Assembly: GCA_947561395.2 (NCBI GenBank) | Contig: OX387185.1 | Coordinates: 19,804,366 to 19,868,365 of the forward strand | Direction of reading: 5' to 3' | Source: Buxus sempervirens | Taxonomy: Eukaryota; Streptophyta; Magnoliopsida; Buxales; Buxaceae | Length of the DNA: 64,000 nt | Part shown: positions 5,640 through 64,000 of the stretch, piece by piece | Layout: every line of letters starts with the position of its first letter | How positions within the stretch are numbered: position 1 is the first letter of the stretch | The notes under the pieces: model-generated | Told to the model about the DNA's origin: nothing | Seen by the model: only the letters and a program-made list of their open reading frames with translations | Databases searched by the model: none | Position numbers and translations under genes: made by a program

Positions 5640-8476
5640 GTTTATTATTGTTGGTGAAGGAGGAAAGGGTAAAATTGGGAAGTTATAAGTCAAGTTTGAT
5701 GAGAAATTGAGTAAAAAAGGTAAGCTTAATAATTTAAAATGTTGGTTGAATATAGCATTTTTAGTTGGAGTAGCAAATCACTAAATTCTAACTCAGTTAT
5801 TGTGACTATGTAGGATGGATGTGTGGTGAAGCATACAGCAAATCATGAAAAGTTTTAAACCAACTTTGGGTGGCTGATGTTAAGTATAAATAGGAACCAT
5901 TGGTTATTGATTTCATTTTGTTGAATCAGAACCCGAAGCCTCTAGAGAATTTGAGAAGGTTTGAGAAGATTTGAGGAGGAAGAAGACAGAAGAACTTGTG
6001 GAATTGTCGTTTGATGTTGGTAGATGAATAAAAAGGATTTCAGATCCAAGTGATTGCAATTGGCTAATAATAGTACGGTGAATTGAAGAATTTCATCCAA
6101 ACCAGAGAAATTACAGGTAAGATCTAGTTATTTTAATTGAAATTAGTGAGAATTAAGTGATCTTAAAAGCTAGACATCAGATATGGAAGAAATCTAATCA
6201 TTTTAAGGTGTTCTTATAGAATTCAATTAAAGTGAACGAGAGAATTTGAATTGAGCTCATATCTGAGGAATTCAATGGTGATTGGAGTTCAAATTGGAGT
6301 TCCAGAGGTAAGTAGCACCTTTCTAAACGAATCTATGTTGTATTTTTCAGATTAAATGCATGATATTTGAAAATGAGAGGTTGAGTTAAGGTTTTATGAG
6401 TTTTTGAGCAAATTAAGTAGAATTTTTAGATCTAATCCATAAATCACGTTAAATTGTGAATTAATTAGTTAGAAAACTTCTATTAGTGTTTTAGAAGATG
6501 TTCGTATGGTTTTAGAATGATTAAATCAGGTTTTGGTAGCTTAAGTTTCGAAAGTTTAGAAAATCTAGAAATTTGTTCGCAAATTTGTATTTTGGCTAAG
6601 TGCCTGGAATCGCGCTTGAGCACTATCCCAAGCGCCCCACTTGTGTTTTCTTTAAAAATTCAGAATTTGAAAGTTATCAAATTCTGTTAAGCTGAGTGCC
6701 TAACCCGATGCTCGAGCGCTTTGTCGAGCATCCATTTTCCAGAATTGAAACCTTCCATCGCCTTCATGCACACTCGAGCGCTATGTCGAGCGCCCAATAC
6801 AGAAATTCCTATTTTCCCAATTTGAGGTGATTTTGAATACGAATTTATTTTTAATCAAATCTAACCTATGTACAAATAAGATTTAGGTATCTAGAAAGTG
6901 TTTGCACATGATTTATCTTTAAATTCAATTTAACAAAGAATTTGGGCACATTCTACTAAACTAGATTCTTGACAGACTTTTGGTTCCAAATTATTATAGA
7001 ATGAGTTTATTTTGATTCTATCACTTGTAACAACTTTCTGAGATCATTTCTAAGGTGTTTCCAAAGGCAAATTACATGATTGGGCTTTATAAAATATTTT
7101 GCCACTTATTTCCTCAATAAAGCCTATTTTGAGGTTAAAAATGTGTTTTGGGGTTTCTACATTAGATTGTAAAGATTTTAAGGAATTACACATATGTAAT
7201 AATTGTATTTAATCACGTTTTAATAAATAAATCTCTGAGATTACATTTCTGGTCATATTTGGGAAAATTAGTATTTTGAGCTCTATTTTGAGTTGTTTTG
7301 GAATAATTTGACTTTGTTGGAAAACTTGCATTGTTTTTTATTATTGTGAATTATTTCCATAGATATTTATATTAATTCTGAGAATGAGATTTGGTTTTCT
7401 TCCGTGTACTCGAGGATGCTCCATGTACTTGGGATGTTGATACTTTTGTGTACTCAGAGATGCCTCATGTACTTGGGAAGAGATGAGATGATTGTGATTG
7501 AAATGAGTTGTGCTTCCTAGACATCGTACTTGCTTTTGTTTTAGAGTCTAGTGGGCATAGCTCGATATGGATCCATTTAGGAGCTAGATAGTGAGAGGGA
7601 TTATATTTTGCTAGTGTAATTATTTGTTCACGCACGCGTTTCCATCTTGTACTCGATGAGGCCTTCGCTGTACTACAGGACTGCGGCTTTCCCTCATTTT
7701 ATCGTGTACTCGGACAATGACTAGATAGTACATGCCAACCCTTCACTGTATTGGTTGGGTCCTTCCGCAATAGGACGATGATCGTGCACTTGGCTTCACA
7801 CACAAGCCAGGAGGTGGCATAGTGGACATTGACATTACTTTAGTTAAAGGCAGTCTTATCTCATGAGTCCTGTTGTGACTTATTGATTTCTGATCAATAC
7901 TACTGATTTAGCTAGTAAAGGAAGTTTGTCTATTTTGTTTGGATTAAGGCTTGTCTCCTTAATGCGTTCCTCCATGATGGAGAGGCCTTCCATGAGGGAA
8001 TGTGTTGCAGCAACTTCGTTTCCACCATGAGGGTGATGACATTGGTATTAGATATGTTGCAGTTATTCTTAGACCAGATTGTTTGGAGCTAGGTCTTAAC
8101 CTTTCAAAATAGTCTAATTTCATTATTATTATTGTTTAGATTATATATATATAATCTAAACCAAAGAAGAAAATAATCATATATTTGGGCATGCATGTGC
8201 TACTTGCTGCGATATTCGTATCTCATTCGATTTTGTTTTGTTTTGTTTTCAGATCTTGGAGAGGATGATACCAGAGGGTAGATGCTTGGATCATGTGAGT
8301 TTAAACTTGAGATATGGTATTTTTGTATTGAGTTTGGGAATATAGTTGACTCTAATTATGTAGATTATTGCTCTATTCATGTTCTTCTTCACTCTGATAT
8401 ATAGATCTTGTGGATTAGCTAACTCTTCGGAGATGAGTTACGGTTTTACTATGTAACTTGGATCCGGGGTGTTACA
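5640..8476 (+). mobile_element. long LTR inside copia leader, left edge unclear
   Basis: The right end reads GGATCCGGGGTGTTACA, the same kind of end as the other long LTRs here. It has TATAAATA at 5885-5892, a donor-like block CAGAG/GTAAGTAGCACC with GT at 6308, and a GC-rich island of palindromic modules at 6598-6800 (arms such as GATGCTCGA/TCGAGCATC). Repeats of a GTACTCG type lie at 7395-7800, and the ATGGAGAGGCCTTCCAT palindrome near 7975. A hairpin at 8208-8225 is followed by a T-rich acceptor ending at 8252. The start and a target duplication were not found, so the left boundary is approximate. Confidence 0.6.
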
Positions 8477-22988: not shown

Positions 22989-25900
22989 TGTGATATCCCG
23001 AATTTTTAATAAAATTAAAAAATTTTATTTTATGTTCATTGATTTATTTAATTAGTGGAAATTTTCTAAAAATAGAGAAAGGAAGTTATTTAGAGTAAAA
23101 TTTCAGAATTTAGACATGTGGAATTATTAGAATGGCAAATTGGTTAATTGATTTTCGGGTTGGGTTTTGATGGTTCGGTGGCATAACAAGAAAAAGGGTA
23201 TTTTGGGGATTTCGCATGACTAAGTGGAGAGGGTCATAAATTATGGTAAGTGGTGTATGATATTAATTTTTAATAATTATTAATAATCATATGTTTAAGT
23301 TATTTTACTTGGGAAGGTGTTAGTGTAAGCTCTTGGTTAGAAGTCAAGTATATAAGAGTTAGCCTATAAATAGGTTGCTCAACTCAACTTGCTGGTTTCG
23401 TTTGATGAAATCAGAGACAAAACTCTGAGAGCTGAGCTGCTGGAGAGAAGTGAGTTCCAGAGGGTTGTCTGAATTGGAAAAGTTAGGAGCTAAGTGGAGG
23501 TAGAATATTTTATTGGTGGACACTTAGCATCTGGAAATTGAGGAGGTTCGTCCAACTCAATGGCAGATCTGGAGAGATCATGTAAGAGAAATTGGTTTCA
23601 GTGGTAAGGGTTGCAATCCGAATGAGCAACCAAGTGTTGATCCAGATCAGAATCAGATCTGGTTGTATTTGTGCAACAGTGAACAATCGGCCACTAAAGT
23701 TGTCATTTCGGAGGTGTTGTGATAAGAGATTTGGGAGATCTGATCGATTGCTCATCAAATCAAGTATGTAGCACTCTTTTTCAACTGGATTTGCAAGCAA
23801 ATTTGAATGAAAGCATGAATTGAATTGCTATATTTGGACTTTTAATATTTGTGAGTGTTTTCGAGTGGAAACCTTCGAATTGTGATATATTCATGTTAAA
23901 TTAAATCCAAAACTGTTTTAGAAGATTGTTAGAAGGTGTACGAGCATGAATCAAGGGTTGTATGTTTTTAAGTTAGTTCAGTCTTGTTGAAAATCAGTTA
24001 GCAGTGTTTCAAGTGACTTCAGGAAATCGGAGGTGGTATGCGCTGAGTGCCGCCCACTGATATAGCTAAGCGGTTCTCAGCGGCAGTTAAGATTTTAGTA
24101 TGCGCTGAGGTGCGCTTACTGCCGCCCACTGACAGTAGGTCAACGCACCTACCCAAATTCAATATCCAGTGCGACTAAGTGATTTTCTCAAATGTTATGT
24201 TTCAGAAACTTGTCTAGGAGTTGAATTAACATGCTAATATTAGTTTCAAGTGATTAGAACCTTTGTAAATTATATCAATAATTATTGAGAGGAATTAAGG
24301 TGATTAAAGAGTTGAATATATGATGATATGCATCTGGTTTAGTTGCAATTAGTGTGGCTGAGTTCATGGACTAATTGATTTCATTTCTTAAACCTAATTG
24401 TAACTGTAGGAGAGCAAAATAAATGTGGCCAGGTGGCTGGAGAGAACATTAGCTAGGGGTTTAAATTGAGATTAAATATAAGATATATATTAGAACTTAT
24501 TAGGGAGTTGTTGAGGATCTTCTTAACAACTCCAAATCAGGAATTCACATGTTAATTATTATTTCAGAATTTCTTAGAGTTGATTATGGATTTGCAAAGT
24601 TAACTAATGAACTTTTACAACGATTTCAAGCAAGTGAATAAAAAGCATTAGTAATGAATATTAGGAAAAGAATTTAGAAAACTTTATCAAAACTATTAGA
24701 AGTAATTGAGTAGGACCTTTTGCTGATTTCAGATATTTTTGTAATCCATTTCTTATTATTGAATTTCAGATTGTGATACCATATAAATTGAGTTGTTATC
24801 TAATTTAGTATGTTGGGCAGAATTTATAAAAGAGGTTTCCATGAGTTGTTGTTTACATCGATTGGTTTGAATATTGTTCTTTGGTTTGAATATACATGTG
24901 GAGTTCCATGGAGTATTATTTTGGTCCTGAGCGACCCATGATAAAGGTGAGTTGTTTCTGGTATATTTGCGACCAGAGGTTGGTCTATTTGCTACCAGAG
25001 GTTGGTTTATTTGTTGAGTTTATTTGGTTTAAGGTCTAGCTTGTCCTGGATCCAGAGTCTAAGCTTAGTATTGTGATGTGTTGACTTTATTGCTGTAATT
25101 GCATGGCCATGAGTGTTGCCATGACCAGGGTAGAGCAGCCCGTGATGTAAAACCCCGAATTTCCCTTAAATAATAAATTAAATTAGTAAATAATATTACC
25201 CAGAGTTATGATTGATAGAAACATTTTAATATTGTAGGGGGTGATCAACTTAGCGGAGATCCAGAATTAGACGCAGATCTGACCGTCCGATCGTGAGATA
25301 TCGAGGTATGTATTCTGTTTGGGCAAGGTGTATAGAAGAGTTGCATGGGAGATGCATAGGATCAGGGGGTATAAATATGTATAAAGAATTAACCTAATTC
25401 TTATACATGTATTGTCGCGCGTATTGAAGAGCCGCAAGCGACGACTGTTCGAGCGACCAAGGGAAGAAGAAGGAGAAGAAGAAGGAAGGGCTGGGCGTGC
25501 GTTCATCGTCCAGAGGATTTCTCTGTGCAGGAGTTTAGCCATTGTGCAGAATAGAGGAGGAGGAAGCAGCGTATAGAGGTAGGTGACACCGTTTTGGTTT
25601 TAAATTCGGATTTATCTCTGTTTAATCGCAAACGCATGTTTCTATGATATGTAAAGTTGTATTTAGTTAGCTAAGCATGTTATAAATACATTAGAATGAG
25701 TTTAGACGAGAAAAATCGTGATTTAGAACTGTTTCTGCTCGATTTGGTGAGACCGCCGACCTCGACTGTGCGAGGCGCTCATCGGCGATCTTAGGCGCTG
25801 GTTAAAGATTTGAGGACGCCGTGGACCGCGGGACGACGGACCGTGGGCGCTCGAATTTGCACTACCGCCGACTGATGACCGCCCGGAGCGATCCTGAGCG

Positions 25901-28307
25901 ATCCCAGGCGCTCTCAGCAGAATTTCCAATTTTTCATAATTTCGAACCTAATTCAATTCTAAACTATTTTTAGACAATTTTAATGATTAATTAAGGTACT
26001 TTAAGACCAAAATAAACTACCTAAATCCCTGTTTTACAGAAAAACAAATTAGGGAGATATTTAGGACATTAGTTGCCAAGTTTTGAAGGAAAAGGAGAAA
26101 TGTGATTTTTGAAAAGCCTAACTACCCTTTGATTATCTAAACACTTCTAAATGACATTATAAATCATAAGACATTATAAAGAGAATTCAGAATCCGAATG
26201 ACTGAATAATGAAGTGAATGTACAGATATAACCATTATATGCCGCTAGGCACCAACCCTTATAGAATTATGATACTTTAGGGAATTTTGGAGTCTAGTGG
26301 GCATAGCTGGTTATGGATCCATAGTCGTAGCTAGATAGCTGAGGGATATGTCATTTGGGTTGAGTTACTCCTATATGCGACGCGCTTCCTTTGCAAGTTA
26401 GTTTGTCTGGGAAGGTCCTATGTCTGGAGGGACACCCCGGTGAGCCGCTGGTGATTCCCTGTACATGTGGATAAGCAACCACCTCCATGTATTGATTCTG
26501 GTGCTGCATGCTGGTGGTACATGCCAACTTTGATGGGTACGTGTGCAATAAGTCGGTGACTACGGCTCTTGTCTAAGCTGCGCTGCATGGGGCTTGAGTA
26601 TCATTAGTAGCATCGCTCCTAAGTCGCACGGTGGTATAGCAATTGGTTGAGAATCATCTCAAAAGGTTTATCTATCTTTGTGAGTCCTACAATGACACTG
26701 AAAACACAACACTTGATATGATTATTCTTATTGTGCACGTGCGGGATGCATGTGATTGGGATATTGGTTGGATGTGACTGCTTAGTACATCCTGGCAATG
26801 CATGGATTATGCTATTGATTTGGCTATTGAGTTCTTATATTAAAACTTGCTGAAAATCATTTCTAGAACTGTTTATCAAACTGTTTTGTGTTCATGAATG
26901 GTATAAATGATTATGCGAGCCTGATTTATCGATGTAGCTTTATCGTGCATGAAATGTTACTTTGCTTATATTAACTGTTTAATCATGCATGTGTTACCTA
27001 CTGGGATATTCGTATCTCACCCTACTTCTATTCCATTTTTTTCAGCTGATACGCGAGAGGGGGATCTCTTAGACTTCCAGGGAGAGATAGCCGAGTATTC
27101 GCCGGAGGATTATTATTATCCAGATCTCATCTGAGGTGGATTGATGTTATAGATTTAGCATTTTGATTGGTTTATTATCATTTTTATGGATTGATGTATG
27201 AGAGAGAAATGAGAGAGAGAGATAGTGACCCGTTCATTTTACCAGACTTTGATACTATTGACTGATGGTCAAGCTTTATGCTTGTTTGAGGATTTTGATC
27301 TACACTTCCGCGCATACTTGTTTCCGCAACTCTGATAGTTTAATATATGGATTGGATTTACTTTCTTTTGTCTGGTATGTTATTGATGTTGTAATTGATA
27401 TGGGCCAATAACACCTTGGATTTGGTTGTTGAACTAAATTTGGGTTGTTACAGTAGCGAACCGGGTTCGGGTCGGGTGCCGGTTTGCACTGACCCGGGTT
27501 CGGAGCGTTACACGTGATCCTTGGTAGGCCGGGTTGTCAATGCCGAAACCCGGAGTAGGCTGGCATTTGGATGACAAAGTTCCTTAGTAGGCAGTCATTT
27601 CAGAGTACCAAGTCTATGTTGACCGGACTGTGTTCCGGGAGGCTTGGATGTCGCTCAGGCATGCGAATTACCTAATATAAGTGAATTACATGACATTGGC
27701 CTCGATGATTTGGTTTTATCGATAATTGTATTTCCAATTGGTCCGGGGTGGCCCATGATAAACACTCCAATTGGTTCTGAGTGGCCCATGATAAACACTC
27801 AGCTTTCTGAAAATTATGATTACATTGGATTTCATGAATATTCAGATTATTTGACATCGATATTACAAACTGACTTACATGTTCAATTTCATTAGCTATA
27901 TCATCTTTATCCGTTATATTATTGTGGGATTAGTCGAATTAATTGTGTTATCGCTATCGTTACCTGTGTATTATTTGATTCATGTTTTATAACTATGCGA
28001 AATGTATTTATGCATGCATGTGCTGCTTACTGGGATATTCGTATCTCATTCGATATTGTTTTGTTTTGTTTTGTTTTCAGCTGCTCTTGGAGAGGACGAT
28101 ACCTATGGGTAGTTGCTCGGTTATGTGAGTTTAGAGTTGTATTATGGTATTTCTTATTTTAGTTTGGGTTTTGTAGAGCACTCTGATTATATATTTATTG
28201 ACTCATTCATGTTTTTCCTTCACTCTGATATTGCGATCCTGTGATATATATTAACCTTCGGAGATGGGTTATGGTTTCTCTGCGTAACTCGGATATGGGG
28301 TGTTACA
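22989..28307 (+). mobile_element. solo LTR (about 2.9 kb net) with nested LTR
   Basis: Starts TGTGATATCCCG, ends GGGGTGTTACA, and is flanked by GAAGA at 22984-22988 and 28308-28312. It contains the nested LTR 25146-27512. TATAAATA at 23365-23372, donor-like CAA/GTATGTAGCACTC with GT at 23764, and a GC island at 24030-24160 (GCGCTGAG, GCCGCCCACTGA repeats). Paired repeats of a GGCCCATGATAAACACT unit lie at about 27735-27800. A hairpin with TTCG loop is at 28031-28048, and the T-rich acceptor ends at 28080. No coding region is seen. Confidence 0.85.
25146..27512 (+). mobile_element. solo LTR, 2367 bp
   Basis: Starts TGTAAAACCCCGAATT, ends CGGAGCGTTACA, flanked by CGTGA at 25141-25145 and 27513-27517. 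A TATA-like block lies near 25366-25385. Donor-like AGAG/GTAGGTGACACC has GT at 25579, and a GC island of GAGCGATCC, GGCGCTC and GCCGAC motifs lies at 25740-25922. The hairpin at 27002-27019 has a TTCG loop, and the acceptor TTTTTTTCAG ends at 27045. It is closely similar to 62085-64000. No coding region is seen. Confidence 0.88.
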
Positions 28308-28589: not shown

Positions 28590-29378
28590 TGTAACGCCCT
28601 GGAACCGGGTTACGTAATGAAACCGTAATTCGTCCCCGAGGAGTTAGCTTTTCAATACAGGATCGCTATATCAGAGTAAGGAAAACATGAAATGGCAATA
28701 ATAAAATCAGAGTCAACTAAAATTTTTCCCAACTCACCTGAACCAAGCATATACTTGCCTGTATCGTCCTTTCTGAGATCTGAAATCAAAACAAAACAGT
28801 GAGATACGACTATCTCAGCAAGTAGCAATGCATGCCCAAAAATACAGTTATAACAGTTCTAAAACATGCACAAATTATAATCAATTAAGTTACGGTTAAT
28901 CTCGGTTAATCCGATTAATCTCGACAATACATCGTCAATCACATATCATGTCAAAATTAGATTCGGAAAACATTATATATTGCGACTCGTGAAGTTTGTC
29001 TATTTTGTGTGGCTAAGCACTAGTGTTCCAAACAATCCAGTTGAAATACTGCAACAGCTCAAGGAATCCAATTATTCGCCATCATGGCGGAAATACTCGT
29101 GTGACCTCACCCTCATGGTGGAAAGGGAGTTGCTGCAGCACTTCCCTCATGGAAGGCCTCTCCATCATGGAGGAAATGCACTAAGGAACCCTAGACTTAA
29201 TCCAAACAAAAAGTACAAAGTTCATCTACAACTAGACTGTGGATCCACACTAAGTTTTGCCCTTTTGTACTTTGGTAAAAATATCACTTACTGTGAAAAT
29301 TTCATATAAAACCATGCTCTTAGTGATTTTAGTCTTTTTTTTACCTTTAACATTATCAACACTCAAATTTCACTCTAT
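28590..29378 (-). mobile_element. minus-strand long LTR, partial
   Basis: The plus strand reads TGTAACGCCCTGGAACCGGG, the reverse of the GGGGCGTTACA type end. It matches 46885-47671 closely and then diverges at 29379. The hairpin (28800-28817) and the acceptor (reverse complement, 28780-28781) are present, as is the ATGGAAGGCCTCTCCAT palindrome at about 29150. GCAAG at 28585-28589 would be one target duplication. It is the likely 3' LTR of the element whose 5' LTR is at 46885. Confidence 0.7.
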
Positions 29379-29510: not shown

Positions 29511-30433
29511 CAATCATTTTATGAAAAATTGGATTTAAATTATCCATATTAAAAATTTCTAAAAGAAACAGCCGCCCAAGACAATTGGAACAAAAATTTC
29601 AGCATCTCAATTTAATTTGTCGAAAACAAAATCTGGTTGTGCTACTTAGTTCTAAATGCCAATTTCGAGTGATTGAAATTCTCAAATCCTCAAGTGAAGA
29701 TTATCAATACCAATTCCAAATCTAATTGCATCAGAGTTCACTAAATTGAGTGGAATAACTGAAATTATTACTCCCTATCAAATAGAAAGTTGCTGCCGCT
29801 AGTATAACTCAACTCCACTTCCACAGAGATGATGATCAGATCCAGATCTCTTTCTCTTTCCTCCACTGAATTTCCAGATCTAATCCTTAAAATTAATAAA
29901 ATCGGAAATTAAAAAAATTTCTCTATAATCCTCTCCTTATGATTTCCTTTGTAACAATATACACCTCAAATTTCTAATTATAGTACTTCCACGCACTCTT
30001 GTAGAGGCAAAGTCTCCGAAATTTCTTGTAAACATCATGATTGCCATCCCCAAATTCTGATGGAGAAATTCTTCCCATAATTTCACTTTTGTCTTCTAAA
30101 ATCACCACGCTTCCACTGCGCATTCACTAATTTCCAAATTACCAACACTTTCTCAATAATCCTCATGAATCCAACCACTTATAATTTCTTACTCTCACTA
30201 ACCATACTTACTAATAATATTAAAATAACTCAAAAGAGAATATCATGATTTTCTGTCACCCACCCTTTCATATATATATATATATATATGCATCTATATG
30301 AAGGTTAAGGAAAGAAATCATGTAAATCCTCTTCCGGTTCAAATTAAGCAGAATAGTACAAAACAATTTCTAATAGATGTATAAATCGTACATTACATAT
30401 CCCATATGTATAAAGCTTATTACCCAAGTAAGT
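29511..30433. other. non-coding DNA, probably LTR-derived
   Basis: AT-rich without a reading frame. A degenerate reverse-complement donor block (GTGCTACTTAG, near 29642) suggests it is part of a minus-strand LTR of the same superfamily, but no LTR start was found. An AT dinucleotide run lies at about 30272-30290. Confidence 0.35.
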
Positions 30434-30649
30434 TGTAAAACCCCGATTATTAGACTAATTAAGTACTTGTGTTATGAAGATGAGGTAGATGTGGATGATT
30501 CTTGAGGATTTAGAAAAATCAATTGAACTTTATGAAGGTTATTGAGGTAAGTTTAATTAATGTTATTTCTCAATTCCAATTGTCTAAGATACTCTTCAAT
30601 TAGCTTATATGAATTGGAAATCAAATTCTGAAAAATTAGATTTATGTGT

Positions 30650-34260: not shown

Positions 34261-34285
34261 GTATCCGGCCTTGAAGGCCGGATAC
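34261..34285. repeat. 12-bp perfect palindrome arms
   Basis: GTATCCGGCCTT and AAGGCCGGATAC flank a single central base. Related copies lie at about 34222-34247 and at 36545-36605 (GGCCGGATAC). Confidence 0.85.
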
Positions 34286-38400: not shown

Positions 38401-38460
38401 AAATAAATGGAATTTGTTGAATTTAAATGTTTGGTAATTAGTAGCTTTGGACCTAGTATC

Positions 38461-41107
38461 TGTAACGCCCCAGAACCGGGTTACGTGAAATAAACCGTAA
38501 CTCGTTCCCAAGGAGTTAGCTTTTCACACAGGATCGCTATATCAGAGTAAGGAAAACATGAAATGGCAACAATATAATCAGAGTCAACTAAAATTTTCCC
38601 CAACTCACCTGAACCAAGAATATACCCGCCTGAATCGTCCTCTCTAAGATCTGAAAACAAAACAAAACAAAACAGTGAGATACGACTATCTCAGCAAGTA
38701 GCAATGCATGCACGAAATATAGTTATAACAGTACTAAAACATGCACGATTAAGAATACACGACGATTAACCACGGTTAATCCGTCTAATGTCGGAAATAC
38801 ATCGTCAATCACATTCGGAAAACTTTATATATATTGGGACTCATGTAGTTTGTCTATTTTGTGTGGCTAAGCACTAGTGTTCCAAACAATCCAGTCGAAA
38901 TACTGCAACAGCTCAAATGACCCAATTCATCGCCCTCATGGCGGAAAATACTCAAGTGACCTCACCCTCATGGTGGAAACGGAGTTGCTGCAGCACTTCC
39001 CTCATGGAAGGCCTCTCCATCATGGAGGAAACGCATGAAGGAACCCTAGAGTTAATCCAAACAAAATGTTCAAAATTCACTTACAACTTGATTGTGGATC
39101 CACACTAAGTCTTGCCCTTATGTAACTTTGGCAAATTAATAAATATAGTTTGCAAATCAGCTTACCATCATGCTCAATATAATTTCAGTCACTTATATAA
39201 TAAACTAGAACAATTTAGTTCAGATAGCCGCTAAAACCATTCAATAATAAAACATAACAGCAATTGGTATATACCGTGAGAACACCTTACTCTTTAACCA
39301 TTTATGATAACCAGTATTAACTAAGATGCCAATTCAGAATTTCCATAGATATAGAAGAAACCAAAAATTCCAAAGAAAGTTTGAAATTCAACCCAAAAGA
39401 ACATTTGGTTAATCACTTTGGTTCACTAAACTTACTTTTGATAACATCCTCTTCATATAGATTTTTACTCATAATTCCCTAACTTTTATTGTCTAAAATT
39501 TATTTCCATAAGTTAATAACATTTCTAGAATTCTCCATTTAATCTCTGATTAACTTAGGTATAATTATAAAAGAAAGAATCAGCTTAGAATAATCTTCAA
39601 AAGCTGCTGTAGAAAAATTACAGCATACATGCTTGTATTTAGATCACCATATCCTTCTAATCAAGTTCAATCACTTATTTCCCATAGGGTTCTCATAATA
39701 CTTGGTTGTTGTTTAAAGTTCAACTAACTTATTTGAGTAGGTTCAGCAATCTATACTCAAGATAAAATGCTGTAGAAAAATTCCTAGCACCAAAGACTAT
39801 TGAGTTGAACTGGTGCTAACCTCCCAAGAGGTTAGCACACCTTGACTTACACCAATGCTTTCCCCAATCACCCCTTCAGTACCACCACGAACATTGAATC
39901 AAACCCCTGGAGTGGTCTTTTGAAACTTTGAAACAAGATTTATAGATTCAGCAAAGTAGCCGCGCATAATATTTGATTTTTTTTGATCTGGTGCTAACCT
40001 ATTTGAGGTTGGCACCAGGTCCAGGCACTAGGCGGCAGTGTTAATTTGGGTCTGGTGCTAACCTCTTTGAGGTTGGCGCCAGGTCCATTAGGTTGGCACC
40101 AGGTATGTTTTTTTTTTAAAAGAACTTCCGCACTCTCTTCCGTAACCCAATTCTTTCTCACTTAAACCGATTTTCCCCATTCCAAACACTTGTAACCCAT
40201 GAACATCACTCAAATAACACCATTAAACTATCTCCAATTTACTGTAACTAAACTCAACTTGAATCATAAAATAAACGCACATTTCAGGAACCGAAATCAT
40301 CATTTACTCAAATCAACTCCAACCTCCTCAAACAATATAAGAATAATACAAAAACATGCTATTTTGAAGGTGCTACTTGCCTGTGTTTTGCTGGATAATC
40401 CAACCACAAAAGAACCATCACAATCTGAACGGATGTGCACGCTCCAAACTCTTCCAACAGATGCTGATCCGAAGAAAGTTCCTATTAAAATATTGATCTA
40501 ATAACACCATCGATTTCAAGATAAAACCTAACCAGTTTAGATTAATTTCATCATGAATTTGATCTTACCAGATCTGGATTGAGAGTTGAACGAGGAATCT
40601 GATCTCAGAAAACAGTCGAACATTTCACTCACGAACTGATCTTCTCCCTTCACTTGTTTTCCTCAAATCAGATCACTCAATCTCTAATGATCCAAAACAC
40701 CCAATTACCCTTCTAGATTTAACCTCTGCCGTTTATGTCTTCTCCCTACAATGAACCGAAATCTGATCTAAACGCTCGAAGGCAAAACGTCTTTACTTTA
40801 AAACAAGACTCTTCAACTCCTTCATGATTCACTGAAGTGCCACTCCATCGGAAATCCTACACCACTCTCTAATAACCCTCGATCAACTGACTTGACACCC
40901 AATAATTACAACACCACTTAATTTAAATCTATTAATTTCCTCTTATATTATTTAGGCAATATTTTTAATATAATATAGCCTAAAATAAATTAATCTTCAA
41001 TTTTCGTGATTTTCCCGAATTACCCTTGCGACACTCCACCCTAAACCAATAAGTTAAAATATAATTAATGCTTCTTATCTTTATAATTAAAAATTCGAGG
41101 TTTTACA
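38461..41107 (-). mobile_element. minus-strand solo LTR, 2647 bp
   Basis: The plus strand starts TGTAACGCCCCAGAACC and ends CGAGGTTTTACA, flanked by GTATC at 38456-38460 and 41108-41112. On its own strand there is a donor-like ACAG/GCAAGTAGCACC (GC donor at 40379-40380). The GC island at about 39985-40105 is made of modules with arms GGTGCTAACCT and AGGTTGGCACC. The hairpin at 38676-38693 has loop GTCG, and the acceptor is at 38651-38652. The ATGGAAGGCCTCTCCAT palindrome lies near 39010. No coding region is seen. Confidence 0.88.
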
Positions 41108-41167
41108 GTATCACTCGGATTTGGGTTTGGTGCTTGTTTTGCATAGACCCGGGTTCGGGGCATTACA

Positions 41168-41720
41168 GTACATCCCTTATGTTACCTAGGGTACACCCCT
41201 TGTATTTCCTAGAGGTACTCCTCTCATATAAGTAAGGTACCCCCACTGTTTCACCTAGGGTACACTCCCTATATAGCCAAAGTACCCCCTTTGTCTAACT
41301 AAAGTAACCCCTATATAAGTAAGGTAACCCTCCATTGTTTTGCCTAAGGTATAACTCCTTATATAGCTAAAGTACCCCCTCGTATAACTAAGGTAGACCC
41401 CTTCTATAGTTAAGTACCTTCCTCAATATAACTAAGGTACACCCCCCTAAGCTTATTCAAAGTTTACCCCTTAAAATGACTAAGGTAAACCCCTTTGAAA
41501 CACTAAGGTACCCCCACTTAACACTAAGGTACTCCTACTTCACACCAGGGTATCCCATCTTGTATAACTAAGGTACCCCCCAAGCATCCCTGGAGTATGC
41601 CTTTGAAATATCTAAGGAACATCCCTTGAAACACATGGGTAACCCTTCAGATAACACTAAGGTACCCTCTACTTATCAGTAAGGTACACCCATACTTAAC
41701 ACTAAGGTACCCCTAAGGGT
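41168..41720 (+). repeat. degenerate AAGGTACCCC array, right half
   Basis: Continues the array from before 31520 after the nested LTR. Copies such as CTAAGGTACCCCC and TAAGGTACACCC recur every 20-30 bp and end about 60 bp before the TATA box of the host LTR. Confidence 0.85.
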
Positions 41721-42730
41721 TTTAGTTGAATAAAAGCCTTGTTTAGGGGCAGATTTGAAAGACCCAAAACTTGGGCATATAAAAGGATGCCCTAATTTCT
41801 AATTAAGTGTTTGCAAACCCATTTCTCTTGTCTTAGTCGTATAAAACAAGAGGGAAAGTGTGGGAGCTTGCTTGGAAGCTTCAAGAGGAAGAAGAAGAAG
41901 GAGAGAAGTGCTTGGAGAGAAGTTTGCTTCTCCATTAACATGTAAGTAGCAAGCCCTTCCAAACAAAATGAATTACCAACTTTCGTATTCTCTCTCTAGG
42001 GTTTGGTTTATTTGATGAAATGATCTTGCATGATGGTTTTGATTTCTAAAATTCGTTGGGTTTTGGTTGTATGATAATCTTGTTGAGTTTTCTATTGATT
42101 TGCCATGGATTTCCGACTGTATTGATTATATTTCAGATTAGGGTTTGAGATTTGGGATGAATCTTTGTTCTGGAAAGTGTTTTAAAGCATGTTGGGATGT
42201 TTTATGATAATCCTATTTGATGTTGGAAGTGCTGGAAATGATTTACATGAGTTTTGTGTTGAAAATAGTCAAAATATTTCAAAATCCCGACCTTGCGATT
42301 AATCCTGAAAATTTACGATTAATCCTAAGCCAAAACCCTAAAAACAAGTCTCTGTTATCCTAAATCGCGAATCAGGATTAATCTGGGCGATTAATCCAAA
42401 GCCTTAGAGCGCAAACGTCAAAGCTCAACGCGCATGCGCCAACCTGTGTATTGCCTCAGCGCGCGAACGTCAACCTTCAACGTGCGCACGCTGCCTTTGT
42501 TTTAAATCTCAACACCCGAACTTTAAATTTCCTGTGTATTTATTGCTCAATTTACTTAAGTCTTTACATGTAAATAAGGTTTTACCCCCCATTTGAAACC
42601 AATAAAAATACTCTCAAGGCCCAATTCCCAACCAATAAAAAGTCAACTTTCCAGTTTGTACCTAATTTTCCAGTTTTCCTGATTTTCATAAAAGACCACT
42701 TTTTGAGTTTGATACCCAAACGAGTGATTC

Positions 42731-44934
42731 TGTAACGCCCCAGATCCGAGTCACATGGAAAAACCCGTAACTCGTCTCCAGAGGTTATTATAAATAACAG
42801 GATCGCACTACCAGAGTAAAGAAAACATGAATTCAATAGCATTATGAAACAGAGTGCGCTAAAATAACCCCAAAGTAACAACTCACATGACCCAATTACA
42901 CAACCCGCAAATATCGGCTCTCCATACATATCTAAAAACAAACAGAAACAAAAGAGTGAGATACGAATATCTCAGCGAGTAGCACATGCATGCAACAATA
43001 CAATTTTTCTAGTTGTAAATTTATGGTCGAATAATCACACGAGAAAACAGGAAATAACCCAGTGGAATCTGCGAACCCTTAGAAGATTTATTTGACACAA
43101 GGGTGTAGAAAGTAAGTTAAACTGTGCGTAAATTAACATCGGGAATACCTTCGTCAACAAAATTCCAATCAGTTTCAAAAACTATATCATTATATCCATG
43201 CTCCAAGAAAAGACAAATTCCCCTACAATCCCATAATATCTAAAACAGATAAATAAATACTCCCACATTGGTCAATGTCATGCAAATATTTGATTGGTTA
43301 ATCAACATGCCAGAGCGACCTCCACACCTCCATGTACACAGTTCCGGCCTACTCAGGAATTCGGAAACTCTGAAATGACGGCCTACTCAGGGTTTCGTCA
43401 TCCAATGCCGGCCTACTCAGGGTTTCGACATTGACAACCAGGCCTACTCAGGGTTTCTGGCTGCTCTACACCACAACACTCCATGGTCATGCCATTACTC
43501 CAATAAAATAAAAGCATCACATTACTAAGCTTGGACTCTGGATCCAGGACAAGTTAAACCAAAACAGTAAATCATCGTATAATCTCAATTCCAACATCAA
43601 ATAAAACAATACATTCCACATCCTGTATAACACATCACAGTTCACCACCTGTCCCTCTGGACCAAACAGTACCTCAAGTACTACCAGTATTTTCCCAATT
43701 TCATAACACATGCCATTTGGAAATAAAACTCAGTTATTCAAACCAAGAAAATCTTTACAATACATTCAGAATTTTCCAAACAAGTGAAACCAGACTTTAA
43801 TAATTTCTCAATCAAAACAATGTATAAAAACAAAGAGGAAACTAACTAAGAACTCCTAGTGTTTTGGTAACCGGTACATCACTTACAAATAACCTAAACT
43901 TAACCTTGGAAACCTTTAAGAATTTCCACTAAATTTTCCTCTAGTAATTGAATAGGTAATGTAGGTTCCAAAGTCCCAAAACAAATGATTGGGTAAGTGG
44001 TTTAACCCTCAAATCATCAAAAACCACTTGGTTTAGCCAAAAACAAAATTTAGCAAGTTTATTTGACTATGCGCTCACCTCCTGAAGTGAGTGCAAGGTC
44101 GGTGGATGGTTCTAGGTTAAAATTTGGGTATGCGCCCACTCGATTTCCAGTGAGCGCGAAGTGGGCGAGAAGTGGGCGTGAAGTGGGCGCTAGCTTCGCG
44201 CGAGAATCGCGTATAGTTTTAAGTGAGCGCGAGCTGAGCAACAAGAGGGCGCCAGCTCGGCGGATGGTGCATATTTAACGTGCGCCTACTACCTGAAGTG
44301 AGCGCCAGTGAGCGCCAAGTGGGCGGATGCTCACTGCGATTTCCGACTCTCTGTTATTTTCAGATCTCCAACTCTGGCTGATCTTTTTCGGTCTGTAACT
44401 ACTTATTTAGACTCCTAATCTTCCCAGAATACTTACAAACTAGTTTTGAATTTAATCTAAACATATTTTTATTTATCATTCATTCAGTCATAATAACTCA
44501 TGCTCGGACGAAGGTTTTCAGAAACTGATATCATACATGCTTCTTCCAGAAACTCAGAAATCATTCATGCATCCGAATAAACTCATGACTAAACACAAAA
44601 CCTCAGTTTTAAAACGATGCTACTCACAGGTATTGAAGATCTTCTTCAAGCTTCCAGCCATCTTTGATGGAGTTCTCTCGAGACCCAAGCTGCTCGGCCG
44701 CCGCCCTAATTTCAGAGCAACAACCTTTCCCCAATCTCCCAATCTCCAAAAATTTTATATTAGTTACCTATTTATAGACATCGCAAGGGTTTAACCTAAT
44801 TCACCCTCAATGTTTAATTAACTCTCGGAATCCCCTTTCTACCCCTTATTCAACTTGGGCTTTCCCGGATTTACTTATTTGCTAATTCCCTATTTACTAC
44901 CATTTTTTTTTCTACTCAAAACTGGGGTTTTACA
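42731..44934 (-). mobile_element. minus-strand solo LTR, 2204 bp
   Basis: The plus strand starts TGTAACGCCCCAGATCC and ends ACTGGGGTTTTACA, flanked by GATTC at 42726-42730 and 44935-44939. A paralogous empty site is present at about 32625-32650. On its own strand it has a TATA box (44769-44776), donor-like CCT/GTGAGTAGCATCG (GT at 44626-44627) and a GC island at 44070-44340 (GTGAGCGC, AAGTGGGCG). A GGCCTACTCAGGGTTTC repeat occurs about five times at 43320-43460. The hairpin is perfect with a TTCG loop (42957-42974), and the acceptor is at 42932-42933. No coding region is seen. Confidence 0.9.
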
Positions 44935-45214
44935 GATTCAGAAGCCCAGAAAATTCTAGAAGATTCCTTTACTCTCCAATAGACCACAACCAGAATTTGA
45001 GCCTGAAATTCCTGTAGATCTATCTAGAACAATTCTACACCGAAAAGTCAACGTTTTTATCCAGACTTAGAATATTTTTGAAGTCCAAAACTTTTTGTCT
45101 TGGAATCCATTGATTTTTGGTAAGGTGACCTTATTAGGAATCCTAAGACTATCCCACTCATCCAAAATGTATTTTGAGGATTTTATGGTATTCGATTTGA
45201 TTGATTTTGGATTT

Positions 45215-45595
45215 CATGAACCGGGGCAGTGTAGAAGTACTACTCCGCTTAGCCTTGATTCATCGGGCAGCGTAGAAGTACTCCACTTAGCCTTGATTCA
45301 TCAGGCAGCGTAGAAGTACTCCACTTAGCCTTGATTCATTGGGCAGTGAAGAAGTATTCCACTTGGCTTTGATGCGTCGGCGGTGTAGAAGTACTCCACT
45401 TGGCCTTGATTTCGTCAACAGCGTAGAAGTACTCCACTTAGCCTTGATTCATTGGGCAGCGAAGAAGTATTCCACTTGGCTTTGATGCGTCGGCGGTGTA
45501 GAAGTACTCCACTTGGCCTTGATTTCGTCGGCAGTGCAGAAGTACTCCACTGGGCCTTGATTCATCGGCAGTGTTGAAATGCTCCGCTTGGCCTT
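45215..45595 (+). repeat. GTAGAAGTACTCCACTT minisatellite with higher-order repeat
   Basis: About ten units of 36-37 bp (GTAGAAGTACTCCACTTAG plus CCTTGATTCATC). A three-unit block of about 111 bp is present twice in succession (about 45305-45417 and 45418-45528), so the array grew by block duplication. Confidence 0.88.
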
Positions 45596-46369
45596 AATCT
45601 TGGATAGCGATTATTAATCTGATTCGGACATTTGACTTGGAATTGTTGATTTGATTTCATCAATTACTCGATTGAGACATTTGACTTGGAATTATTGATT
45701 TGATTTCACGAATTACCTGATTGAGACATTTGACTTGGAATTACACTTTATATCTGTTTGAGATGTTTTGGTTTACATTTGGTATCTTATACTTGTGAAT
45801 ATTATCATGATGTTACAAAATTGCATAAATTTTTTCTCTGCATGCATGTTTGCTGCTTATTGGGACTTTATGTCTCACGTGTGTTTTGTTTTACCGGATT
45901 TGTTTTTAGATCCGCTTGGTGAGCCGCGTACCGGGGCAGTTATTGAGGTTGAGCTTGAGTACAGGCCAGAGGACTGCTACCACACATAGTAGGGTTCTTT
46001 TTATGATGTTGTATTTTATCTTGGGAGTTGTAAATGGGATGTAAACATCATTTTTGGACTTATACTCTTGGGAGATATCTTTTGTTCATGTATGTATATT
46101 TTTGAGAGATCATTAGGAATGGTTAGTTGCCTTAGTTGTATTTTGTTCACATATATATATATATCATGTTTTGGAGATTATAGTATAGATGATATTTTGA
46201 TTAGATGGAAATTTTTATTCCATGCTTCTTTAGTCATTCACTCTGATGATTACTTTGTAATCGCCCAGGATTAATTGTGTTAATCCGATTCTATTGGGCC
46301 CATATGTAGGTCTTGGGGACGGGTTGGTGCCGTGATAGGGCAGACCCGGATCCGGGGCGCTACATAAGT

Positions 46370-46870
46370 GTTCAGCATTGGCCGATGCCTTACATTGCTC
46401 AAGTATAGCTATATACCTATGGCTCATCATCCAATTAAGCACACAGTAGCATGTATGCTTAATCAACCATCACCAATTTCATGCTTCAAATATAATCATC
46501 CACAATTAAGATTATTTCACATTCCCCAAACATTTATCTTACTATTTATCTCTACCTCTTTTACTTCTCAGGATCTTCAAGTTCCTTCCAATTAGAACTA
46601 CAATAACTTTTCTCTAACCATGCAAAATTAATAATAATAATAATAATAATGCATTATATCACAAATAACAATCATATCATACCAAATAATTGTAGCATAA
46701 GGTTCAAGTAACTTACCTTTAATAATAAGGATTGCCGCTATATTTTGTAGAAGGAACACTCTCATCCTAAATTTCCTATATAACTGGTGCTAACTAACGT
46801 GCACACAACCCCCAAGGCCATCCTAGGGTTTCTTATTTCTATGCCATGTTTCCTTTCAAAACGCTGATAT
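46370..46870 (-). other. leader of a minus-strand LTR element, non-coding
   Basis: DNA between the primer site at 46871-46882 and the outer LTR inserted at 46364. It has no reading frame of note and contains an AAT microsatellite at about 46630-46652. By position it is the 5' leader of the element whose LTR begins at 46885. Confidence 0.55.
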
Positions 46871-46882
46871 GCTCTGATACCA
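46871..46882 (-). promoter_or_regulatory. primer binding site for initiator tRNA-Met
   Basis: The minus strand reads TGGTATCAGAGC, an exact match to the initiator tRNA-Met primer site, two bases from the LTR end. It shows that the TGTAAAACC...CGTTACA long-LTR families are retrotransposons of the initiator-Met class. With LTRs of 2-4 kb this suggests the Del/Tekay group of Ty3 (inference). Confidence 0.85.
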
Positions 46883-46884
46883 TC

Positions 46885-49086
46885 TGTAACGCCCCAGAAC
46901 TGGGTTACGTAATGAAACCGTAACTCGTCCCCGAGGAGTTAGCTTTTCAATACAGGATCGCTATATCAGAGTAAGGAAAACATGAAATGGCAATAATAAA
47001 ATCAGAGTCAACTAAAATTTTCCCCAACTCACCTGAACCAAGCATATACCCGCCTGTATCGTCCTTTCTGAGATCTGAAATCAAAACAAAACAGTAAGAT
47101 ACGACTATCTCAACAAGTAGCAATGCATGCCCAAAAATATAGTTATAACAGTTCTAAAACATGCACAAATTATAATCAATTAAGTTACAGTTAATCTCGG
47201 TTAATCCTATTAATCTCGACAATACATCGCCAATAACATATCATGTCAAAATCAGATTCGGAAAACATTATATATTGGGACTCGTGAAGTTTGTCTATTT
47301 TGTGTGGCTAAGCACTAGTGTTCCAAACAATCCAGTTGAAATACTGCAACAGCTCAAGGAATCCAATTCTTCGCCATCATGGCGAAAATACTCGTGTGAC
47401 CTCACCCTCATGGTGGAAAGGGAGTTGCTGCAACACTTCCCTCATGGAAGGCCTCTCCATCATGGAGGAAATGCACTAAGGAACCCTAGACTTAATCCAA
47501 ATAAAAAGTACAAAGTTCATCTACAACTAGACTGTGGATCCACATTAAGTCTTGCCCTTCTGTACTTTGGTAAAAATATCACTTACTGTGCAAATTTCAT
47601 ATAAAACCATGCTCTTAGTGATTTTAGTCTTTTTTTTTTACCTTTAACATTATCAACACTCAAATTTCAATTAGTCATAAAAGCCATCCAGTAGTAAAAT
47701 TTTACGGCAATCAGTTCATGTGGTGGAAATACTTTACAATTATCCAAAAATGAAAACTAGTGATTCTTCAAAGAAAACATCACAAATTACTATTCAAGTT
47801 ACAATAGAAAACAGCAAGTTTAGTAGTATTACAACCAGGTAAAAAATTCTCTAATAAGCAAACTTTATTATAGCTAGAAAAATCAGATTTGTCTAACTTT
47901 CCTTAACTGATCCTATTACCAATTCATACTCATTCCTTATTGTCAATCTAGTTCCCATAAGTTGTTACAGATCTGAAATTTTAATCAAAATTTAAAGAAT
48001 TCAATAATGTCAATCTCCAAACACAATCTTTCCTTCACCACCATTAACTCAAAAAGATTTCCCAATTCTGATTTATTTTTCTAATGCAATCCTTAATTTA
48101 ATTCACCAAAGTTTGTTCTGGAATGCTAAACAAATTCAAATCAACTCCTTCAAACATGTTTTAAAAGCTAAAACTGGAACTATGATCAAATCTATAAACA
48201 ACCGCACTGTTACTTAAAATTGGGTATGCGCTGAGTTGGGGAGGTAGGTGCCAGGTTAGCACGAGGTCAGCGCATCCAAAAATTGAGTGTGCGCTAGGGA
48301 AGGTAGGTGCCAGGTCAGCGCATCCAAAATTTCACTTTGGTAATGTTTTCAACTACGGCAAACACCAAATCTCATGGACTGAATTGTTTTCCCTCCATCA
48401 AAACACCTCTAATAATTCATTTAACATCTAAATAACTCAAGTAACCCCCTTCGAATTTAATCTAAATAGTTTTAACATCTAACAAAAAATCCATCGCACA
48501 AAACTTAACAGAATATGCAATTTTTGTCCATCACATCTCCCACTCTTCAAAGGATCTTAAACCATACGAAAAACATGATAAAAACGATGGTGCTACTTGC
48601 CTGCTTGATTCTGGAACCCAACTCCACAGAAACCACGTCTGTTCAGGAACTTGACAGCACTCCAAAATTCTCCGACGACTAAATCTTCTGGTCTGAACTA
48701 GGACTTGGGACGACTTCTGTTCCAACAGATTTCGGACGTCCACTCTTGAACAGAACAAAATTTCTCCTTCTATCAAATCTTTAGTTAGCTCTCCTCCATC
48801 TCACCTCCAAAGTTTCTGTTTAGTTTTTCTCAACCTCTCAAATCTCCTCTCCATACGATTGGTTTCTCCCGAAATTGAACAGTCATAACTATTCCTAAAC
48901 GCTCCAAGACAAAACGTTTACATTAAGCAAGACTCTCCAACTCCTTCATGATCTGCTGCGGTGCTCCACCACCGAAACTCCTCCACCAACAGCCTATCAA
49001 CCCTTGATCAATTAATTAGCCACCCAACAATACCAATCAACACCACCTTATTTTATTTCTAATAAAATATAATCACACTTACCCTT
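46885..49086 (-). mobile_element. minus-strand 5' LTR, split by the Tat element
   Basis: The plus strand starts TGTAACGCCCCAGAACTGGG, next to the primer site. It is the same family as 28590-29378 and 38461-41107. Hairpin at 47095-47112, acceptor at 47075-47076, ATGGAAGGCCTCTCCAT palindrome near 47447. GC island at 48225-48320 (GCGCTGAG and GGTAGGTGCCAGGTCAGCGC motifs), donor-like CAG/GCAAGTAGCACC with GC at 48599-48600. The TGTAAAACC start is not reached because the Tat LTR begins at 49087. Confidence 0.8.
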
Positions 49087-62084: not shown

Positions 62085-64000
62085 TGTAAAACCCCGAATT
62101 TTCCTTAAATAATAAATTAAATTAGTAAATAATATTACCGAGAGTTATGATTGATAGAAACATTTTAATATTGTAGGGTGTGATCAACTTAGCGGAGATC
62201 CAGAGTTAGACGCAGATCTGACCGTCCGATCGTGAGATATCGAGGTATGTATTCTAATTGGGCAAGGTGTATAGAAGAGTTGCATGGGAGATGCATAGGA
62301 TCAGGGGGTATATATATGTATAAAGAAATAACCTAATCTTATACGTGTATTCTCGCTCGTATTGAAGCCGCAAGCGACGAACTGTTTGAACGACCAAAGA
62401 GAAGAGAAGAAGGAGAAGAAGAAGGAAGGGCTGGGCGTGCGTTCATCGTCCAGGGAGTTTCTCAGTGCTAGAGGTTCGCCATTGTTCATAATAGAGAAGG
62501 AGGAATCAGCGTATAGAGGTAGGTGACATCGTTTTGGTTTTAAAATTGGATTTACCCTTGTTTAATCGCAAATGCATGTTTCTATGTTATGTAATGTTGT
62601 ATTTAGTTATCTAAGCATGTTATAAATACATTAGAATGAGTTTAGACGAGAAAAATCATGATTTAGAACTGTTTCTGCTCGATTTGGTAAGACCGCCGAC
62701 CTCGACTGTACTTGGCGCTCATCGGCGATCCTAGGCGCTGGTTATAAAATTGAGGACGTCGTGGACCGCGGGACGACGGACCGTTGGCGCTCGAAATTGA
62801 ACTACCGCCGACTGGAGACCGCCCAGAGCGATCCTGAGCGATCCCAGGCGCTCTAAGCAGAATTTCCAATGTTTCATAATTTCGAACCTAATTCAACTCT
62901 AAACTATTTTTAGACAATTTTAATGATTAACTAAGGTCTTTTAAGACCAAAATAAACTATCTAATTCCCTGTTTTACAGAAAAACAAATTAGGGAGATAT
63001 TTAGGACATTAGTTGCCAAGTTTTGAAGGAAAATGAGAAACGTGATTTTGGAGAAGCCTAACTACCATTTGATTATCTAAACACTTCTAAATGGCATTAT
63101 AAATCATAAGACATTATAAAGAGAATTCAGAATCCGAATGACTGAATAATGAAGTAAATGCACAGATATAACCATTATATGCCGCTAGGCACCAACCCTT
63201 ATAGAATTATGATACTTTAGGGAATCTTGGAGTCTAGTGGGCATAGCTGGTTATGGATCCATAGTCGTAGCTAGATAGCTAAGGGATATGTCATTTGGGT
63301 TGAGTTACTCCTATATGCGACGCGCTTCCTTTGCAAGTTAGTTTGTCTGGGAAGGTCCTATGTCTGGAGGGACACCCCGGTGAGCCGCTGGTGATTCCCT
63401 GTACATGTGGATAAGCGACCATCTCCATGTATTGATTCTGGTGCTGCATGCTGGTGGTACATGCCAACTCTGATGGGTACGTGTGCAATAAGTCGGTGAC
63501 TACGGCTCTTGTCTAAGCTGCGCTGCATGGGGCTTGAGTATCATTAGTAGCATCGCTCCTAAGTCGCACGGTGGTATAGCAATTGGTTGAGAATCATCTC
63601 AAAAGGTTTATCTATCTTTGTGAGTCCTACAATGACACTGAAAACACAACACTTGATATGATTATTATTATTATTGTGCACGTGCAGGATGCATGTGATT
63701 GGGATATTGGTTGGATGTGACTGCCTAGTACATCCTGGCAATGCGTGGATTATGCTACTGATTTGGCTATTGAGTTCTTATATTAAAACTTGCTGAAAAT
63801 CATTTCTAGAACTGTTTATCAAACTGTTTTGTGTTCATGAATGGTATAAATGATTATGCGAGCCTGATTTATCTATGTTGCTTAAACGTGCATGAAATGT
63901 TACTTTGCTTATATTAACTGTTTAGTCATGCATGTGTTGCCTACTGAGATATTCGAATCTCACCCTACTTCTATTCCATTTTTTTCAGCTGATACGCGAG
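62085..64000 (+). mobile_element. long LTR, runs off the window
   Basis: Starts TGTAAAACCCCGAATTTT inside the Tat polyprotein linker; TCTTT at 62080-62084 would be one target duplication. It is closely similar to 25146-27512. Donor-like AGAG/GTAGGTGACATC has GT at 62519, the GC island lies at 62690-62865, and an AAT microsatellite near 63662. The hairpin at 63945-63962 has a TTCG loop, and the acceptor ends at 63988. The LTR end is outside the window, so solo or full-length status is unknown. Confidence 0.8.

Follow-up and report, generated by a model that had tools for sequence, protein, structure and literature searches.

Nine LTR copies with an intron-like module

The analysed stretch of the Buxus sempervirens genome (64,000 nucleotides of contig OX387185.1, assembly GCA_947561395.2, positions 19,804,366 to 19,868,365; referred to below as the window) contains nine copies of long terminal repeats (LTRs), designated A, B, C, D, E, G, m40, m44, and m48. 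All nine carry an intron-like module consisting of a GT or GC donor, a branch-point candidate, a T-rich tract, and a YAG acceptor, and the putative intron opens with 11 bases, the donor among them, that are complementary to an 11-base arm ending 38 to 50 nt before the intron end. The donors and acceptors coincide to the base with the nine of each proposed in an earlier, sequence-only reading of the window (Table 1). Intron lengths are 1945 (A), 1467 (C), 1470 (G), 1730 (m40), 1696 (m44), and 1526 (m48) nt; net of nested LTRs they are 1759 (E) and ~1944 (B) nt, and the D intron is 6138 nt raw, inserts included.

That reading had also placed a TATA box in every copy and a tenth acceptor at 28780 in a partial copy. 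The motif TATA[AT]A[AT] is present within 700 nt upstream of the donor in seven of the nine copies and is missing from m40 and m48, and the partial copy retains the stretch from the 3' arm to the acceptor with only a decayed donor-like sequence, CTAAGTAGCAC, at 29649 on the minus strand. The LTR bodies had further been described as diverged, with both edges persisting: the intron bodies are indeed mostly unaligned between families, but the claim that only the edges persist was overstated. Copies A and B align at 77.7% from the acceptor block through exon 2 in the window self-comparison, and a GGATCC block lies ~450 to 730 nt upstream of the acceptor in seven of nine introns inspected (A, B, C, m40, m44, m48, and L063, and not L016 or L030). 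Within the window, the donor block has 20 matches at ≤2 mismatches versus 4.05 expected, five of which are on the opposite strand, at acceptor-side arms; the acceptor-side block has seven matches at ≤3 mismatches and none in 100 shuffles.

Copies B, C, D, E, m40, and m44 are nested solo LTRs, as judged from their TG..CA ends and exact 5-bp target site duplications (TSDs), with C within B, m40 within D, and both D and m44 within E. For A, G, and m48, one LTR end was not found or lies beyond the window. The elements are Ty3/gypsy LTR retrotransposons. Among 60 loci whose LTR end was inspected, the primer-binding site TGGTATCAGAG, which presumably fits the initiator-Met tRNA, follows the LTRs of L050 and L060, with a one-base variant in L026, and it also follows that of m48; the polypurine tract GGGGGAAACAA lies upstream of the L051 LTR start. 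A family-C element in two pieces (L069 and L070) matches RVT_1 (E value, 8.5e-40), RT_RNaseH_2 (2.5e-15), and SH3_Tf2-1 (6.1e-26), so that the pieces code for reverse transcriptase/RNase H and an integrase tail; no Pfam match to a chromodomain or rve was obtained in the family-C piece read, nor any Pfam match in the single F4 internal piece read (L051). The integrase C-terminal motif of the family-C element is one that we take to be Tekay-like, and the elements are perhaps of the Tekay type.

The two ends of the putative intron are complementary and covary

The donor block is the reverse complement of the arm with some G.U pairs, as in copy A (GTAAGTAGCAC versus GTGCTACTTGC), and a hairpin, the branch-point candidate, and the T-rich tract lie downstream of the arm. 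Pairing was scored in 48 copies, comprising the nine window copies and 39 of 60 loci (L009 to L068; 20 of ~40 listed matches for each of three families). To avoid circularity, the loci were retrieved with exon-2 queries that include neither arm, and donors were located from the homology of their flanks after masking of the 12 donor bases. The families all derive from a single genome and are mutually related; families B, C, D, m40, and m48 are represented by window copies only, and L001 is copy A itself. The 21 loci without a donor by flank homology (15 F1, 2 F3, and 4 F4) are outside all pairing and intron counts; an arm-based search of these loci, in which two F3 loci were queried with the arm one base off, gave candidates in nine, circular and uncounted, and no recognisable block in L019. 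In L002 to L008, donors are present and no acceptor block was found downstream. The mapped donors of L011 and L028 are shifted by one base, derive from other-family matches, and may belong to a neighbouring insert; both loci are included in the 48 rows and excluded from the 43 contiguous introns, from which 15 were taken for splice-site scoring and 8 for folding as bare introns.

In the true register, 523 of 528 cells are standard pairs, compared with 18.6 to 64.1% in six slid registers (one of which has only 209 cells). Changes on both sides were found in 5 of the 11 pairs (2, 3, 4, 8, and 11), and across 22 distinct donor/arm combinations (242 cells) the departures comprise 36 G.U pairs versus 5 mismatches. 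In family C, for example, the partners are GTAGGTGACAC and GTGTTACCTAC, and in F4 they are GTGAGTAGCAT and GTGCTACTCGC; in the GC-donor copies, the C faces the G that wobble-pairs with U in family A. With one chosen representative from each of eight families, the families' own pairing gives 75 Watson-Crick pairs, the maximum of 40,320 permutations (mean, 65.75; 24 reach 75 and none is higher), and in six less related families the 58 own pairs compare with a mean of 51.2 and are reached by 6 of 720 permutations; these permutations and the register control address composition and chance, not phylogeny. The mean duplex energy is -15.0 within families and -11.3 across them. The best arm in the 50 positions upstream of the acceptor outranks every other intron position in 40 of 43 introns, and in the remaining three (L010, L032, and L036) it shares first place with a single other position. 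The adjacent hairpin is kept in altered form (GGGATA-TTCG-TATCTC; in family E, GGGAC-TTTAA-GTCTC).

The terminal pairing is thus well supported by covariation. The sequence-only reading had noted that the donor block is conserved past the splice consensus, and this is borne out: the additional conservation is explained by pairing with the pre-acceptor arm, maintained through compensatory changes.

Two explanations without a role for RNA bear on the same data. Blocks that form inverted repeats 1.3 to 2 kb apart could be the ancient termini of a DNA element that had inserted and was passed down within the LTRs. However, DNA repeats would not favour compensatory changes between families with 36 G.U pairs versus 5 other departures, and the fixed order with the T-tract and AG also argues against this origin, which we consider highly improbable; inverted repeats of a DNA transposon were dropped on the G.U-rich compensation. 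Mere shared ancestry, in which the blocks have not decayed yet and are under no selection, could draw on the relatedness of the families and on the partial conservation of the stretch through exon 2. Nevertheless, the bodies between the blocks are mostly unaligned between families in the window self-comparison and two-sided change in five pairs is unexpected without selection, and we give this explanation very little credence as well.

Two short words accompany the helix: GCATG lies 22 to 87 nt downstream of the donor in eight of the nine window copies, and CATGCAT stands directly upstream of the 3' arm in all nine. Together they could form a possible second helix or be a DNA-binding motif. 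The module has no match in Rfam at the gathering threshold, the sole match in the window being snoR71, and the acceptor block had no matches among IMG/VR viral contigs.

Splice-like signals

Scored with an approximate plant matrix, the donor is the best of 347 to 463 G positions in 10 of 15 introns, and the acceptor is the best of 87 to 137 AGs in 13 of 15. The nine window donors agree with MAG|GTRAGT at 7 to 9 of 9 positions, and both GC donors (m40 and m48) carry the full CAG|GCAAGT. Outside the helix, a G directly precedes the donor at 58 of the 84 sites printed with their letters among 262 F4 sites. The branch-point candidate downstream of the hairpin is CTCAY in eight window copies and CTTAC in m48; in 55 of 68 copies it precedes the following AG by 22 to 32 nt, and its A is present in 66 of 68, although the anchor pattern itself includes that A and L027 is misanchored. 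The presence of an intron-like module within the LTRs, as originally proposed, is well supported by the donor and acceptor ranks and the branch-point candidate, and these sequence tests favour a spliceosomal intron.

The signals have also to be weighed against a structural role alone, in which the helix and hairpin would be an R-region RNA element (packaging, dimerisation, or strand transfer) that is not spliced and resembles splice sites only secondarily. Helix positions 9 and 10, which are as invariant as splice positions (22 of 22 combinations), the failure to find intronless copies, and the CATGCAT and GCATG words described above are all compatible with such an element. It does not predict, however, that the donor and acceptor should rank first in 10 and 13 of 15 introns, that branch-point candidate, T-rich tract, and YAG should follow in constant order, or that both GC donors should have the complete consensus. 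We consider this alternative unlikely, though less so than the two discussed above.

A second donor-like sequence, GTGAGTT, is located 42 to 45 nt downstream of the acceptor in A, B, m40, m48, and m44 (Table 1). GTGAGT occurs within ~120 nt past the acceptor in 31 of 60 fetched loci; two E-family copies shown have GGTGAGC, and C and D have no such site. These sites point to a possible mini-exon with a second intron after it, whose splicing might take the primer-binding site out of the message. Past its primer-binding site, the leader of m48 has a strong donor-like AAAG|GTAAGTT at ~46710-46722 on the minus strand.

Alignments of copy A with L002 to L008, L014, and L016 start within ~23 nt of the donor (6285-6308), and their introns are 76 to 90% alike; L006 also aligns across exon 1, with an offset, L010 aligns straight through, and many genome matches likewise start at the donor. 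These start points could be due to fast change of exon 1 or to template switching.

Search for intronless copies

LTR elements replicate by copying their new R-U5 from the RNA's 5' end, and a spliced template would consequently yield intronless LTRs. Queries with joined flanks retrieved no intronless copy among the best 40 of 1811 candidates scored for family C, the best 40 of 1367 for F4, or the best 40 of 3322 for E, m48, and A together. None of the matches passes the junction by more than 3 bases, and a spliced copy should rank highest in score. Junction patterns with ≤3 mismatches gave no matches in F4 or E, whereas a comparable donor pattern matched 262 intact F4 sites and its reversed control none; the two kinds of search together cover families C, F4, E, m48, and A.

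The reverse-transcribed RNA must therefore keep the intron, and its removal from every transcript, as first proposed, is at odds with this and unsupported. Either there is no splicing or spliced RNA is not used as a template. A constitutive leader intron, removed from essentially all transcripts with the helix helping by joining the ends, could appeal to the strong splice signals and to the general idea that terminal pairing can cut the effective distance between splice sites. Yet it would lead one to expect intronless LTRs, in contrast to 262 intact F4 donors and none of the former in the searches above, and the helix spans positions +1 to +6, the required binding site of U1. Conserved complementary regions over splice sites of human genes are reported to be mostly obstructive (PMC8052449). 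A constitutive intron thus appears distinctly unlikely, more so than a purely structural element.

A proposed attenuated leader intron

The explanation that we favour, and to which we assign about an even chance of being right, is an attenuated leader intron, in which the helix would limit splicing and so allow both a spliced mRNA and an unspliced genome. The intron, ~1.3 to 2 kb long, would lie in the R region of the LTR, which should be transcribed. Positions +1 to +11, at its 5' splice site, would pair with the 11-base arm just upstream of the hairpin and likely branch point, closing both intron ends into one helix. The paired 5' splice site would be partly masked from U1 snRNA, which would hold splicing at an intermediate level. 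The spliced RNA, with its short leader, would be the message, and the unspliced RNA would retain the intron and serve as the reverse-transcription template, which would explain why genomic copies keep it. In this view, which is inferred, the complete RNA would contain the helix, splicing would take place, and the helix would reduce rather than promote splicing; the division of labour between message and genome is likewise a proposal, and support for it is thin. ATG is scarce in the 200 nt upstream of the donor (10 versus 23 expected in five copies), though not in exon 2.

Folded without constraint, all 8 of the bare introns examined place the donor on the arm, over 9 to 11 bases. In addition, with 40 shuffles per 160-nt window, the lowest folding z-score (-2.5 to -5.1) was obtained in a window starting 240 to 400 nt into the intron in six of eight contiguous introns, and this best-folding region could be a possible packaging element.

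Several observations weigh against an attenuated intron or weaken the case for it. Since the families are related and come from a single genome, the cells of the pair count are not independent. Flanking sequence reduces the donor-arm fold, to 8 of 9 introns with 30 nt, 4 of 9 with 100 nt, and 1 of 9 with 200 nt, and with 200 nt upstream and nearly all of exon 2 downstream it was obtained in 0 of 2; in predicted long-context folds, then, the helix mostly loses to competing structures. Four donor-swap folds were mixed (0, 6, 10, and 10 pairs), and z-scores of donor/acceptor-side duplexes versus shuffles were weak (-0.2 to -2.2). The best-folding window lies elsewhere in C and L030, and among three partial introns only D fits. 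The donors of m40, m44, m48, L050, and L063 are not top ranked (ranks 3, 7, 9, 10, and 11 among them), and the acceptors of L010 (rank 5) and L016 (rank 42), both mutated, are below the top. The absence of AG between the branch point and acceptor is uninformative, as only 17% of shuffled tracts have one, and ATG is not scarce in exon 2 (28 versus 26 expected; exon 2 of copy C was taken 58 nt too short in the ATG counts and in the exon-2-flank folds). Finally, without an intronless copy, there is no direct genomic trace of splicing.

Because added flanks weaken the fold and the duplex z-scores are weak, the case for the helix rests on covariation and draws nothing from predicted energy. Competition with other folds would also fit an 11-bp helix that is regulated and not permanent.

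Other features of the window

The coordinates of the modules and LTRs are collected in Table 1. Two LTR pieces at 28590-29372 and 46885-47669 are 96.7% identical and in the same orientation, and are possibly both LTRs of one decayed element; the former piece has CT where the donor has GT or GC. Stretches of the D LTR at 32426-32880 are 86 to 87.5% identical to the E-family intron body, as would be expected of a recombinant LTR or an unresolved nested insert. Another Ty3/gypsy element has a 1.67-kb LTR pair (11158-12826 and 19527-21184; 99.1% alike), and the Rfam match to snoR71 (48.7 bits) is at 13439-13545 on the minus strand, antisense within the gag-pol frame of this element.

Table 1. Coordinates of the intron-like modules, LTRs, and associated sequences in the window
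Feature	Positions	Strand	Remarks
Copy A donor GTAAGTAGCAC (helix 5' arm)	6308..6318	+	Donor rank 1 of 440 G positions
Copy A 3' arm GTGCTACTTGC, hairpin, CTCAT, T-rich tract, acceptor AG	8197..8252	+	11/11 paired; rank 1 of 137 AG
Copy B donor GTATGTAGCAC	23764..23774	+	10/11 paired
Copy B 3' arm to acceptor	28020..28080	+	
Copy C donor GTAGGTGACAC	25579..25589	+	11/11 paired; donor rank 1 of 413
Copy C 3' arm GTGTTACCTAC to acceptor	26991..27045	+	Acceptor rank 1 of 109 AG
Copy D donor GTAGGTAGCAC	31992..32002	+	11/11 paired
Copy D 3' arm to acceptor	38075..38129	+	
Copy E donor GTAAGTAGCAA	41942..41952	+	11/11 paired
Copy E 3' arm TTGCTGCTTAT to acceptor	45850..45909	+	
Copy G donor GTAGGTGACAT	62519..62529	+	11/11 paired
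Copy G 3' arm to acceptor	63934..63988	+	
Copy m40 GC donor GCAAGTAGCAC	40370..40380	-	10/11 paired; donor rank 7 of 439
Copy m40 3' arm TTGCTACTTGC to acceptor	38651..38704	-	Acceptor rank 1 of 127 AG
Copy m44 donor GTGAGTAGCAT	44617..44627	-	11/11 paired; donor rank 11 of 461
Copy m44 3' arm GTGCTACTCGC to acceptor	42932..42985	-	Acceptor rank 1 of 119 AG
Copy m48 GC donor GCAAGTAGCAC	48590..48600	-	10/11 paired; donor rank 3 of 386
Copy m48 3' arm TTGCTACTTGT to acceptor	47075..47123	-	Acceptor rank 1 of 118 AG
Partial tenth copy, 3' arm to acceptor	28780..28828	-	
Partial tenth copy, decayed donor-like CTAAGTAGCAC	29639..29649	-	9/11 paired
LTR copy B	22989..28307	+	TSD GAAGA; copy C interrupts
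LTR copy C	25146..27512	+	Solo, TSD CGTGA
LTR copy D	31520..41167	+	Nested inserts, TSD GTACA
LTR copy E	30434..46364	+	Nested D and m44, TSD TAAGT
LTR m40	38461..41107	-	Solo, TSD GATAC
LTR m44	42731..44934	-	Solo, TSD GAATC
Primer-binding site region (GATGGTATCAGAGC)	46863..46884	-	Directly after LTR m48
Second donor-like GTGAGTT	8295, 28125	+	
Second donor-like GTGAGTT	38608, 42886, 47032	-	
GGATCC block	7569, 25048, 26315, 39096, 43540, 47536		Window copies

Relation to known systems

Retroviruses (HIV and others) have a structured major splice donor in the leader with the packaging signal downstream; their splicing is incomplete, and unspliced RNA is packaged. Retroviral acceptors are far downstream near other genes, whereas here both intron ends are in the LTR. 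By analogy, the closest parallels would be the incomplete splicing of retroviruses and of Ogre.

According to the available part of a 2025 review, plant LTR elements are generally intron-free, with Ogre and EVADE as exceptions (PMC12786077). Ogre/Tat elements of pea and Medicago, like those described here, are plant Ty3/gypsy elements, and they carry an intron that is removed from only part of the transcripts, as stated in the accessible portions of two sources (PMC6317226, PMC12786077). The Ogre-type intron sits between gag-prot and pol, in contrast to the present putative one, which is wholly in the LTR, would therefore occur twice per full element, and has paired ends. In the Ty1/copia elements EVADE and BARE1, splicing gives a GAG message beside the full-length RNA and acts on the gag-pol region, with no LTR intron or terminal helix described in the same part of the review (PMC12786077). 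Diaspora, a soybean Ty3/gypsy element with a long leader, resembles the present elements in having splice donors predicted within the LTR; its predicted acceptors, as given in the accessible text, flank the gag start and are outside the LTR (PMC1142308). Human introns provide a likeness to the pairing itself: the available part of one study describes long-range complementarity of intron ends that is under selection and affects splicing, in host genes, in regions that avoid branch points and obstruct splice sites (PMC8052449). Unlike these regions, the pairing described here has the first base of the intron as its exact starting point and is repeated in different transposon families.

No description of an intron lying wholly inside a plant LTR was found in the accessible text of the literature on LTR introns, introns upstream of gag or in Tekay elements, and introns with long-range structure. 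The intron text available from a survey of plant LTR elements concerns only Ogre (PMC6317226), a study of LTR structure has no "splic-" word and has "intron" only in a reference title (PMC3601003), and a survey of centromeric retrotransposons has neither (PMC3059260). Sunflower direct RNA reads include spliced retrotransposon isoforms, with Tekay members absent from the expressed set in the portion available (PMC7730604), and the accessible parts of PMC4558846 and PMC11359688 contain nothing on an LTR-internal intron. Since most subscription papers were outside the search, the novelty of the LTR-internal intron is provisional.

Implications

Tentatively, and with more doubt than confidence, we can picture a whole lineage of abundant plant retrotransposons that controls its life cycle through an R-region intron, with a long-range helix locking the 5' splice site to the branch-point region: opening the helix would give the message and closing it the genome, the packaging signal would be in the intron, and the helix would co-evolve as families diverge. 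An intron of this kind, its ends co-evolving inside the LTR, would give plant LTR retrotransposons a testable switch of their own for sorting RNAs into message and genome, and might account for part of the length of these LTRs. It would also put splice sites in solo LTRs genome-wide (262 F4 donor sites) and would offer a natural series of compensatory changes in a helix between a splice site and a branch point.

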